A DNA stretch of 64,000 bases from Phycisphaerales bacterium (GTDB lineage: Bacteria; Planctomycetota; Phycisphaerae; Phycisphaerales; UBA1924). The DNA is taken from contig JALHNL010000001.1 in NCBI GenBank assembly GCA_022843545.1, positions 1-64,000 of the forward strand, written 5' to 3'. Below are positions 23,634 to 27,097 of this stretch, in pieces. A model generated the notes under the pieces. It searched no databases, was not told where the DNA came from, and saw only the letters and a list, made by a program, of their open reading frames with translations. How positions within the stretch are numbered: position 1 is the stretch's first letter; each line of letters opens with the position of its first letter. Position numbers and translations under genes: made by a program.

Positions 23634-24932
23634 ATGCTTGCTCTGTTCGCCGCCGAGCCCCCGAAGATCGACTCGGGCGGCACCGCCTGGATGCTCATGA
23701 GCTCCGCGCTCGTGCTCGTCATGGTCCCCGGCCTCGCCCTCTTCTACGCCGGCATGGTCAGACGCAAAAACGTCCTCACCACGATGATGCAGTCCTTCGT
23801 CGCCATGGCCGTCATCGGCGTGCAGTGGGTCACCGTCGGCTACATGCTCGCCTTCGGCCAGACCGCCGGGGGCATCGTGGGGTGGGAGCCGCGGCTGCTG
23901 GGTCTGTGGGGCGTGGACTGGCACGCGATGTACGGCGACAAAGGCATCCCCGAGCTCGCCTTCGTCATGTTCCAGGGCAAGTTCGCGATCATCACGCCCG
24001 CGCTCATCGCCGGCGCCGTCGCCGAGCGCATGAAGTTCTCCACCTACATCGTCTTCATTCTCGTCTGGACCACCTTCGTCTACTGCCCGCTGGCCCACTG
24101 GGTCTGGTCCCCCGATGGCTGGCTCTTCAAGATGGGCGTCCTCGACTTCGCGGGGGGCACCGTCGTCCACATCTCCGCCGGCTTCTCCGCCCTCGTCCTC
24201 GCCCTCATGATCGGCAAACGCCGCGACTACCTCCCCGGCCTCGCCACCGAGGGCTTCGTCATCCTCCCCCACAACCTCACCATGACCCTTCTGGGCGCGG
24301 GCCTCCTCTGGTTCGGCTGGTTCGGCTTCAACGCCGGCTCCGCCGTCGCCGTCGAGTTCCCCGTCTCCGGGTTCTCCGCCGCGCTGGCCTTCACCACTAC
24401 GCAAACCTGCGCCGCAGCCGCCGGCTTCACGTGGCTCATGATCGAGTGGGTCCACAACGGCAAACCCACCAGCCTGGGCCTCGCCTCGGGGATCGTCGCG
24501 GGTCTCGTCGCCGTCACGCCCGCCGCGGGCCACATCCAGCCCTGGTCCGCCGCCATCCTGGGCGTCTTGGCCTCCGTCGTCTGCTTCCTCGCCGTGCGCG
24601 CCAAGAACAGGTTCGGTTACGACGACACGCTCGACGCCTTCGGCGTCCACGGCATCGGCGGCCTCCTCGGCGCGCTCGCCACCGGCATCTTCTGCATCTA
24701 CAACATCGCCGGCGAAGCCAACCAGGGCCTCGTCTTCGGCCAGACCACGCAGATCGGCCTCCAGGCCCTCGGCGCCGCCACCGGCATCGGCATGGCGGTC
24801 TTCGGCACGCTGCTCATCGGCGGCCTCCTCAACGTCACCATGGGCCTGCGCTGCTCGCCCGAAGAGGAACGCGACGGGCAGGACCTCTCGGTGCACGGCG
24901 AGCGCGGGTATCACCAGGACATCGGGTCGTAG
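23634..24932 (+). CDS. amtB: Ammonium transporter (Amt family)
   Basis: 432 residues, about eleven transmembrane helices; conducts NH4+/NH3 across the inner membrane. The pore twin histidines are H179 (GGTVVHISAGFSALV) and H339 (DAFGVHGIGG), with D171 upstream (LDFAGG) as in E. coli AmtB. The N-terminal ALFYAGMVRRKNVL and the cytoplasmic tail RCSPEEERDGQDLSVHGERGYH are family hallmarks. ATG 23634 has GAGGGAG (23621-23627) upstream. Order is amtB then PII (93 bases apart), the reverse of E. coli. A short N-terminal stretch before the first helix could be a cleaved signal. Confidence 0.96.
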   Translation: MLALFAAEPPKIDSGGTAWMLMSSALVLVMVPGLALFYAGMVRRKNVLTTMMQSFVAMAVIGVQWVTVGYMLAFGQTAGGIVGWEPRLLGLWGVDWHAMYGDKGIPELAFVMFQGKFAIITPALIAGAVAERMKFSTYIVFILVWTTFVYCPLAHWVWSPDGWLFKMGVLDFAGGTVVHISAGFSALVLALMIGKRRDYLPGLATEGFVILPHNLTMTLLGAGLLWFGWFGFNAGSAVAVEFPVSGFSAALAFTTTQTCAAAAGFTWLMIEWVHNGKPTSLGLASGIVAGLVAVTPAAGHIQPWSAAILGVLASVVCFLAVRAKNRFGYDDTLDAFGVHGIGGLLGALATGIFCIYNIAGEANQGLVFGQTTQIGLQALGAATGIGMAVFGTLLIGGLLNVTMGLRCSPEEERDGQDLSVHGERGYHQDIGS

Positions 24933-25025: not shown

Positions 25026-25376
25026 ATGAAGCTCATCATCGCGATCATCAGGCCCGAGCGGCTCGAAGCGGTGCAGACCGAACTTCGCAAAGTGCTCGAC
25101 GAGAACGACAACTACCGCCTCACCGTCCAGGCCGTCGAGGGCCACGGCGCGCAGCAGGGCGAGGTGCAGTACTTCCGCGGCCAAGCCATCCGCCCTCGCC
25201 TGATCCCCAAACTCCAGATCACGCTGGGGCTCAACGACGACTACGTCACCCGCGCCGTCGACGCCATCTGCGCCGGCGCCCGCTCGGGCTCGGTGGGCGA
25301 CGGCAAGATCTTCGTCATGCCCCTCGAAGACTGCATCCGCATCCGGACGGGCGAGCGCGGGGGGAAGGCGATCTGA
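25026..25376 (+). CDS. glnK: P-II nitrogen regulatory protein
   Basis: 116 residues. PII fold with MKLIIAIIRPERLEAV, T-loop EGHGAQQGEVQYFRGQAIRPRL, LIPKLQITL and the B-loop/C-terminal GSVGDGKIFVMPLEDCIRIRTGERGGKAI. By linkage it should gate AmtB according to ATP/2-oxoglutarate. The T-loop residue equivalent to the uridylylated Tyr51 of E. coli GlnB is Ile55 here, and Tyr46 is Phe50, so control by uridylylation at that site is unlikely. It has four more residues before the T-loop (LDENDNYR). A Shine-Dalgarno AGGAA (25016-25020) precedes the ATG. Its stop codon is the first three bases of a dispersed repeat. Confidence 0.94.
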   Translation: MKLIIAIIRPERLEAVQTELRKVLDENDNYRLTVQAVEGHGAQQGEVQYFRGQAIRPRLIPKLQITLGLNDDYVTRAVDAICAGARSGSVGDGKIFVMPLEDCIRIRTGERGGKAI

Positions 25377-25478: not shown

Positions 25479-25520
25479 CCCCCCCACCTCACCCCCACCC
25501 CCCACCCCCCACCCCCTCTC
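25479..25520. repeat. C-rich low-complexity tract
   Basis: Runs of five to seven C separated by single A or CT, similar in kind to the tract inside the glycosyltransferase gene (26774-26813). Slippage-prone; possibly able to form G-quadruplex on the other strand. Confidence 0.7.
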
Positions 25521-25575
25521 GGGGCTCCGGCACCGTCTGGCCCGGACGGACTGCGTACATCGCGTTCGATCGGGC

Positions 25576-25785
25576 GTGTCCAGGCGGCCCGGACGCGAGG
25601 AAAGACGCCCTTTCCCCGTGTCTCGGTCGCTGAGACACGAGGAAAAACTCCTTTTCCCCGCGATTCAGTCGCTGAGACACGAGGAAAAACTGTTTTGGCG
25701 CGTGTCTCAGCCGCTGAATCACGGCCTGAAGGAGTTTTTCCTCGTGATTCAGAGGCTGAATCACGGGCAAACGCGACGATTCCCC
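25576..25785. repeat. Array of five 42-bp units, each of two 21-bp dyads
   Basis: Units start at 25576, 25618, 25660, 25702 and 25744, an exact 42-base period. Each unit is a 21-base dyad followed by a 21-base partner. The first dyad is GTGTCTC-N7-GAGACAC in unit 2 and GTGATTCAG-N3-CTGAATCAC in unit 5. Units 3 and 4 are mosaics of the two arm types. The partner is GAGGAAAAACT-CCTTTTCCCC in unit 2 and its near reverse complement (GGAGTTTTTCCTC) in unit 4. The array lies between glnK and the 3' end of the glycosyltransferase gene. Confidence 0.85.
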
Positions 25786-25945
25786 GCCGGATCGCCGGAT
25801 AACCCGCCGCTTTCGCGCCGAACCTGCGCGAACGCGCCGGGCACCACGACACCACCGCGCGAAGGCCCGCGCCAACCATCGCGAACCCGGCCCGGGCCGA
25901 AGCGACCACGGGACCGGATAACCACCCGGCGGTCATCCGTGGTCG

Positions 25946-27097
25946 TCACTCCCGATACGCCCCCAGCACCTGCCTCACATACCCGCTCGCCAGCCGCTGC
26001 GTCTGCACGTACTGCCGGGCCGACGCCGCGAGCGTCGCCGCCTGCGCCGGGGTGTGGATCACGCCGGTCAGCGCGGCGCTCACGTCGGTGGCCGCGGGGC
26101 CGATCAGCCGCGCGGTCCGCCCATCCTGCAGGCACGACACCATCGGGTCCGGGCGCGCGATCACCGCCATGCCCGAGGCCATCGCGTCCAGCACGATCGT
26201 CCGCGCCGCGCCCGACGCGTCGGCGATCAGCAAAATGTCCGCCTGCACCACCAGTTCGCGCTGCCCTTCGATCGTCGGCAGCACCGTCAGCCGCCCCTCC
26301 AGCCCCAGCCGCTGGCACCACGCAAAGATCGGCATCGCGCTCGCCAGGTCGGCGCCCACGAACAGCATGAGTTCCGGCACGCTCGCCGCCGCCAGCGCCA
26401 GGCCCTCCAGCGCGGAGCGCACCGCCGCCGGATCATCGCGACCCGCCAGCATCACCACCGACGTGCTGTCGCGCGGCGCGCTCCAGTCGCGCGCGCGAGC
26501 CGGAACGTGCACGCCCCAGAACCCCGGCGCGGCCCTCACGCCCCGCGGCCACCGCCCCGCGCCGCGCTGCATCTCGCCCAGCAGCGGCTCATCCGCGCAC
26601 AGGCACCGCACCTCAAGACCCAGATTCGCCGCCGACGCCGCCGCCCGCGCCGCCTGCGGCCACACCCGCGTGGAGTCCACCTCGATCACCAACTTCGCCC
26701 CCACGCGCCGGGCCAGATCAGCCGCGAACGCCCACGACTCAGGACCAAAGGCGTGGACCACGTCCAGCACGCGCCCCCCCCCCCCCACCCCCACCCCCAC
26801 CCCCACCCCCCCCGCCACACCCACCGGCACGTCCTCGCTCGCCGCGGCGAGCCGAACGCGATCAAGCAGCGAACTCACCCGCAGCCCGCGCGTCAGCGGC
26901 AGCCCGCGCAGGGCGCAGGGCAACGGCGTGCTGTACACCCCGGGCAATTCCTCGCCGGCGGCGCGGACCTCGCCGGCTTCGCGCGGCAGGGCGTGGAACA
27001 GGCGGTACCCCTCGTCGGCCAGGCCCATTTCCAGCCGGTCCAGCAGCACCCGCTCGCGGGCCAGGAAGGCACGGTCTGGAAGCATGAGGGCACGCAC
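25946..27097 (-). CDS. Glycosyltransferase (GT-B, family 4-like)
   Basis: 383 residues. The C-terminal half has the GT-B donor-binding pattern VVMLAGRDDPAAVRSALEGL, RLTVLPTIEGQRELVVQADILLIAD and VLDAMASGMAVIARPDPMVSCLQDGRTARLI (E/D-x7-E-like region partly degenerate). The N-terminal half ends with VVHAFGPESWAFAADLARRVGAKLVIEVDS. It probably transfers a sugar in envelope polysaccharide or glycan synthesis; no neighbouring polysaccharide genes help. A Gly/Val-rich insertion near residue 95-108 is encoded by a long homopolymeric tract and may make the gene phase-variable. Start GTG 27097 has GGAG six bases upstream; ATG 27085 is the alternative. Confidence 0.78.
   Translation of the reverse strand: MRALMLPDRAFLARERVLLDRLEMGLADEGYRLFHALPREAGEVRAAGEELPGVYSTPLPCALRGLPLTRGLRVSSLLDRVRLAAASEDVPVGVAGGVGVGVGVGGGGRVLDVVHAFGPESWAFAADLARRVGAKLVIEVDSTRVWPQAARAAASAANLGLEVRCLCADEPLLGEMQRGAGRWPRGVRAAPGFWGVHVPARARDWSAPRDSTSVVMLAGRDDPAAVRSALEGLALAAASVPELMLFVGADLASAMPIFAWCQRLGLEGRLTVLPTIEGQRELVVQADILLIADASGAARTIVLDAMASGMAVIARPDPMVSCLQDGRTARLIGPAATDVSAALTGVIHTPAQAATLAASARQYVQTQRLASGYVRQVLGAYRE
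26774..26813 (-). repeat. Homopolymeric G tract inside glycosyltransferase gene
   Basis: On the coding (minus) strand an 8-G run, three 5-G runs separated by single T, a further 5-G run and a 13-G run (26774-26786). It encodes the Gly/Val-rich segment. Length change by one or two bases would shift the reading frame of the downstream catalytic domain. Confidence 0.85.

Follow-up and report, generated by a model that had tools for sequence, protein, structure and literature searches.

Why should a gap between two bacterial genes hold a row of palindromes at an exact spacing? This question is raised by a locus in the window, a stretch of 64,000 nucleotides from a Phycisphaerales bacterium. An earlier description made from the letters alone (the original prediction) had proposed five 42-bp units in phase with the DNA helix, whose palindrome arms change in pairs. 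Here, we re-examined this array together with its copies in the same genome (G000) and arrays in related genomes.

Anatomy of the array and its copies

The five units start at 25576, 25618, 25660, 25702 and 25744, as had been predicted: self-identity of the array is 0.68 at a lag of 42, far above the 0.27-0.28 at lags 41 and 43, and no copy of either unit, at three mismatches, is expected in shuffled sequence. A feature that the original prediction had missed is the CG dinucleotide found each 21 bp from 25575 to 25785 (11/11), which also recurs in the second 42-bp array of the genome (8/8). Because CG recurs every 21 bp, the underlying step of the lattice is 21 bp, and the 42-bp period is twice this step. 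The components of the locus are listed in Table 1.

Table 1. Components of the array and neighbouring genes in the window
Feature	Positions	Strand	Evidence or remark
Whole satellite array, 11 lattice steps each starting CG, higher-order period 42	25575..25806		Lag-42 identity; CG 11/11
A dyad, unit 1, degenerate end unit	25576..25596		GTGTCCAGGCGGCCCGGACGC
B module, unit 1	25597..25617		GAGGAAAGACGCCCTTTCCCC
A dyad, unit 2, TCTC/GAGA arms	25618..25638		GTGTCTCGGTCGCTGAGACAC
B module, unit 2	25639..25659		GAGGAAAAACTCCTTTTCCCC
A dyad, unit 3, asymmetric	25660..25680		GCGATTCAGTCGCTGAGACAC; reverse complement of unit 4, ~2 differences
B module, unit 3; contains array inversion centre 25691	25681..25701		Inverted-repeat arms 78% complementary
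A dyad, unit 4, asymmetric, inverse of unit 3	25702..25722		GTGTCTCAGCCGCTGAATCAC
B module, unit 4, inverse of unit-2 B module	25723..25743		GGCCTGAAGGAGTTTTTCCTC
A dyad, unit 5, ATTC/GAAT arms	25744..25764		GTGATTCAGAGGCTGAATCAC; opposite-strand identical copy at G000:C98:7545-7565
B module, unit 5, poor dyad	25765..25785		GGGCAAACGCGACGATTCCCC
Right flank, candidate end block	25777..25832		TTCCCCGCC-N10-ATAACCCGCC ... CCTGCGCGAA; aligns with second array G000:C98 (L014)
PII nitrogen-regulator gene (glnB/glnK type)	25026..25376	+	ORF and recognisable sequence; downstream of amtB (23634-24932)
Glycosyltransferase-like gene	25946..27097	-	PF13692, E 1.8e-4, below Pfam cut-off

Each unit had been described as a 21-bp dyad (A) with an A/T-rich 21-bp partner dyad (B). 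In the nine units of both 42-bp arrays, 70 of the 81 cells (86%) of the A dyad are Watson-Crick pairs, in the forms GTGATTCAG-NNN-CTGAATCAC or GTGTCTC...GAGACAC, which bears out the first part of this description. The B dyad is present but weak (47/81 cells paired) and offers no independent evidence, because a periodic sequence with one dyad automatically has a second one halfway.

The proposal that arms change in pairs was not supported. When pairing within a unit's own arms was compared with pairing to other arms by permutation over both arrays, p was 0.058 for A and 0.80 for B; matched arms did not outnumber mixed ones either, with two units of the window matched and two mixed. In about 40 related arrays, arm covariation was +0.02 or -0.02, with a sign that followed the choice of phase (own versus neighbour pairs), and 42 arrays showed no effect. 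The palindrome is a property of each array's consensus, without unit-by-unit repair. Units 3 and 4, previously considered to be mosaics of two arm types, are instead one unit in two orientations, being mutual reverse complements. The array flips at 25691, the centre of an inverted repeat with two 80-bp arms (25611-25690 and 25692-25771, 78% complementary), and this flip accounts both for the apparent mosaics and for the inversion of the unit-4 partner relative to unit 2, which had been correctly recognized.

The array starts 200 bp after the end of the PII-type gene. As the glycosyltransferase-like gene is convergent to the PII gene, the array occupies a tail-to-tail gap according to gene calls that were GC3-based and made in this analysis. 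C-rich simple repeats were also observed just ahead of the array (25492-25516) and within the glycosyltransferase-like gene (26774-26825) (CCCCCAC x3.6; CCCCCA x8).

A search for further copies revealed one more array of the window sequence (G000:C98:7545-7715, four units, 42-bp spacing), giving a total of two genome-wide, and alignment showed that the right flank is common to both. Two more non-coding arrays, with a period of 63 (3 x 21), were detected in the 462 kb of this genome that was scanned (C1:119358-119573 and C3:1505-1730); these are inverted copies of one family whose units are 80% identical. The genome contains one 42-bp family and one 63-bp family with two arrays each, so that several arrays of unrelated sequence are present.

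Intergenic palindromes of mixed or alternating orientation are also typical of REP, BIME and REPIN elements, and one could suppose that the units are mobile palindromes of this type moved by a RAYT transposase. However, the window sequence is present in two copies in the genome and not in hundreds, its spacing is fixed on a 21-bp lattice (21n), and the array-bearing genomes tested (G000, G022, G250 and G114) lack RAYT, with no match to Y1_Tnp (PF01797) in these or in G082 and G148. Such an origin is extremely unlikely.

The period rule in related genomes

Pattern and BLAST searches identified many arrays in a genus of the same family (g23), which differ in sequence and have a common 21-bp phase, typically GA-N4-CG-N4-TC plus 7 bp. 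The generic GA-N4-CG-N4-TC pattern was set aside as evidence beyond the family, since its matches in the class were mostly heptamer microsatellites and the reversed control was not clean. Long heptamer microsatellites, (GANNNTC)n, were observed in G586, G594, G337, G581, G474 and G107, which belong to the same class.

In G022, 800 kb were scanned by autocorrelation in an unbiased manner. Period 21 was represented by 30 arrays and periods compatible with codons (18, 24, 27 and 30, among others) by 4-9, and none was found at 19, 20, 22, 23, 25 or 26. When periods of 15-139 were considered over 1.96 Mb of seven genomes, which had been selected because they yielded hits, the period was 21, 42 or 63, all multiples of 21, in 34 of the 36 non-coding arrays, and 135 and 43 in the other two. 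All three non-coding arrays in the sampled part of G000 were of this type (42, 63, 63), a TRF check alone gave 24/30 in G022, and the same period rule was found in G127, one genome from another family of the order. The score threshold was 40, and the best score in first-order Markov random sequence with the same dinucleotide make-up was 18.5. No qualifying 21n array was present in G067 and G270 (same family, 100 kb each) or in the G148 sample, which implies that array density varies widely, although these samples are small. Thus, the helical phasing suggested by the original prediction is strongly supported by other arrays, whose non-coding periods are nearly all 21, 42 or 63. It is very likely that the window array belongs to the non-coding bacterial satellites that have a fixed repeat length and a free sequence.

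The sequences themselves are mostly array-specific: G022 has about 20 arrays in 800 kb, few of which are related in sequence. Dyad symmetry in intergenic G022 arrays exceeded a null in which the 21 columns were permuted, with a mean z of 2.3 and p<0.01 in 9/21; the excess is clear in only about half of the arrays. A neutral minisatellite generated by replication slippage would be consistent with array sequences that differ, are lineage-specific, and come and go. However, slippage could not select 21, 42 and 63 among all lengths (34/36) and leaves the dyad excess unexplained, so that we consider it very unlikely. A coding repeat (21 bp being 7 codons) was also rejected, as a codon-phase signal was found in none of the 21 intergenic G022 arrays. 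A 10.5-bp phasing of A/T was searched for in related arrays and none was found; because of this absence, there is no sign of intrinsic bending.

Of the G022 arrays, 7 were located in divergent, 3 in convergent and 11 in co-oriented gaps; the corresponding numbers among all gaps of at least 250 bp are 57, 28 and 114. No preference for gene orientation is seen here, which implies that the class as a whole has no special link with either promoters or terminators. This distribution bears on a possible RNA role, in which the transcribed array would fold into strings of hairpins and act as a bidirectional terminator, an RNA buffer or a small RNA. The window array has convergent genes on its two sides and folds strongly on both strands (z of -9.8 and -8.7), although high folding z is expected of any palindromic repeat. 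Additionally, one G022 array stands where G109 has a near-perfect hairpin with ~28-bp arms (AACGAGCCCCTCGCGCGAGCGAGGGGAA, G109:C1:369166-369257) between the same convergent genes, and the 52-nt satellites of Bacillus are transcribed (PMC8625621). On the other hand, arrays have no preference for gene ends (7/21 are in divergent gaps), G-T mismatches did not exceed A-C mismatches when arrays were oriented by the end block described below (94 vs 104), no Rfam family was matched, and an RNA role does not explain why the period should be 21, 42 or 63. We consider it unlikely.

End block, gain and loss of arrays

In six species of genus g23, arrays of unrelated repeats at scattered loci are closed by a conserved block, GGAACTCTTCTcGGGGGCGCCAGGGCGGTTTCTCTATCGGAC, whose last letters are AGGGCGGTTTCTCTATCGGAC. 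All 12 instances examined were located beside a 21-bp array in fixed phase (11 clear and one weak), and no conservation was seen beyond the block in these instances. Named records include the planctomycete MAGs Phycisphaeraceae bacterium TGS_PLA1 and Phycisphaerae bacterium 3_bin.40. Identity between neighbouring units is highest at the end block and falls from 0.76 to 0.39 away from it, a decay that is partly due to unequal array lengths. In the G022 sample, the block accompanies only about one array in four. A common ATAACCC/GGGTTAT flank across genera was rejected, as G022 flanks gave only three matches (0.3 expected) and the orientation differs. A phage origin was rejected, given the absence of both the end block and the arm pattern in IMG/VR.

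Some arrays are adjoined by copies of a gene for a 231-aa protein (MRLPYSKVAKLEYLERRVDGW..., MRLPYSK-type; L076:3145-3840). This family has about 20-60 paralogs in most g23 genomes, with 42 in G022 and 59 in G250. It had no Pfam match, and no sign was found that the protein acts on arrays.

Comparison of species revealed gain and loss of arrays at defined sites. The gap between an aminotransferase gene and rpsD contains an array in G022 and G250 and none in G082 and G114; in G109, the array upstream of rpsD is unrelated in sequence. For two G022 arrays, the orthologous gaps in G109 are empty, one of them being the gap with the hairpin mentioned above. Because arrays have been lost between sister species, their role should be dispensable at any given site. 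Within the last 130 bp before rpsD, all seven g23 genomes also have a leader, GCGTGGGCCGGATCAGTGCAC..GGCCCGCAGTCGCGGTCGCCGGCCTGATCGCCGGG (L109-L115), which is perhaps an S4 autoregulatory RNA.

The end block raises the possibility that the array is a self-propagating satellite, to which a putative enzyme with a two-turn ruler would add or copy 21-bp units beside the block, and which may do nothing for the cell. Several observations are consistent with this idea, including the phase-locked position of the g23 block at the ends of very different repeats in six species, the peak of unit likeness at the block end, the gain and loss of arrays, and the common right flank of both 42-bp arrays of G000. 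However, the block accompanies a minority of the G022-sample arrays, the decay in identity stems partly from array length, neither a conserved other end nor a target duplication was seen, and no enzyme was found, Y1/RAYT transposase being absent in G000, G022, G250 and G114. On balance, this alternative appears somewhat unlikely. A more specific version, a Phycisphaerales system in which the ~40-bp end block directs the putative two-turn-ruler enzyme to build dyad 21-bp arrays, with geometry specified and sequence not, is unlikely.

A possible role and comparison with known systems

The likeliest role of the array, though a tentative one suggested by the sequences, would be to offer a putative dimeric DNA-binding protein of weak sequence specificity a lattice along one face of the DNA. 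For the whole explanation, i.e., a satellite of the 21n class plus a putative protein lattice on one face, we estimate a probability of about 0.45. Successive units would have to face the same side of B-DNA, as this is the only simple reason for non-coding periods of 21, 42 and 63. One protein dimer may bind each 21-bp dyad in a cooperative manner, and the short nucleoprotein filament formed in the gene gap might fasten the nucleoid or insulate neighbouring genes. Likeness among units could be kept by copying within the array, and selection would act on spacing and symmetry and not on sequence. Considering that the arrays of one genome have no common recognition sequence, the binder should either tolerate different sequences or be array-specific. 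The data point to a requirement of DNA geometry, and hence to a nucleoprotein lattice or a repeat-building enzyme, new in either case.

To our knowledge, bacterial satellites in which length is fixed and sequence is free have been on record since 2020, and no function or mechanism has been assigned to them. Cooperative operator and centromere arrays, such as ArgR box pairs and sopC of plasmid F, offer a parallel for the proposed lattice, in that dyads in helical phase place dimers on one face. Each of them has one recognition sequence and a known protein, whereas most arrays described here have their own sequence. The window array is flanked by the PII-type and glycosyltransferase-like genes, compared with the parA/parB-type neighbours of a plasmid-type centromere. 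CRISPR loci are likewise tandem arrays that have a conserved block on one side; however, the arrays have no unique spacers, and it is the repeat, not the spacer, that varies between arrays. The CRISPR reading was rejected because both modules repeat and the pattern of identical repeats with unique spacers is missing. REP/RAYT, CRISPR, coding and plain slippage explanations are disfavoured or excluded.

The closest known system is the class reported by Subirana and Messeguer, whose repeats keep a constant size (20-21 or 52 nt) while their sequence varies; these repeats are species-specific and only partly conserved between strains (PMC8161180, PMC8625621). The authors of this class pointed to two helix turns and proposed either a small RNA or proteins whose polymerisation on the DNA depends on a constant repeat size (PMC8161180). 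The window array resembles this class in its size (20-21 nt or a multiple), its non-coding nature and the presence of several unrelated families per genome, and the Phycisphaerales arrays are likewise partly conserved between relatives (at rpsD and two other loci here). The view that no named element is similar has to be modified to this extent. It stands for the palindromes, the end block and the 42/63 harmonics in Planctomycetes, as neither palindromes nor planctomycete repeats appear in PMC8161180.

Features that distinguish the Phycisphaerales arrays from the constant-size class are dyad units, periods of 42 and 63, orientation flips, an end block found across species and empty orthologous sites. 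The dyad property may be general, since 10 of 27 published consensus repeats of the Bacillus 52-nt satellites, some of whose families are related, also have a dyad excess at p<0.05 (5/27 at p<0.01). With respect to the open-licence literature, the dyads, the quantisation at 21, 42 and 63, the end block and the empty sites are new. The class now has testable claims, namely whole-turn periods (21, 42 and 63, with the 52 of Bacillus near five turns), dyads and flips, and gain and loss at defined sites together with the end block of one genus provide handles on it.
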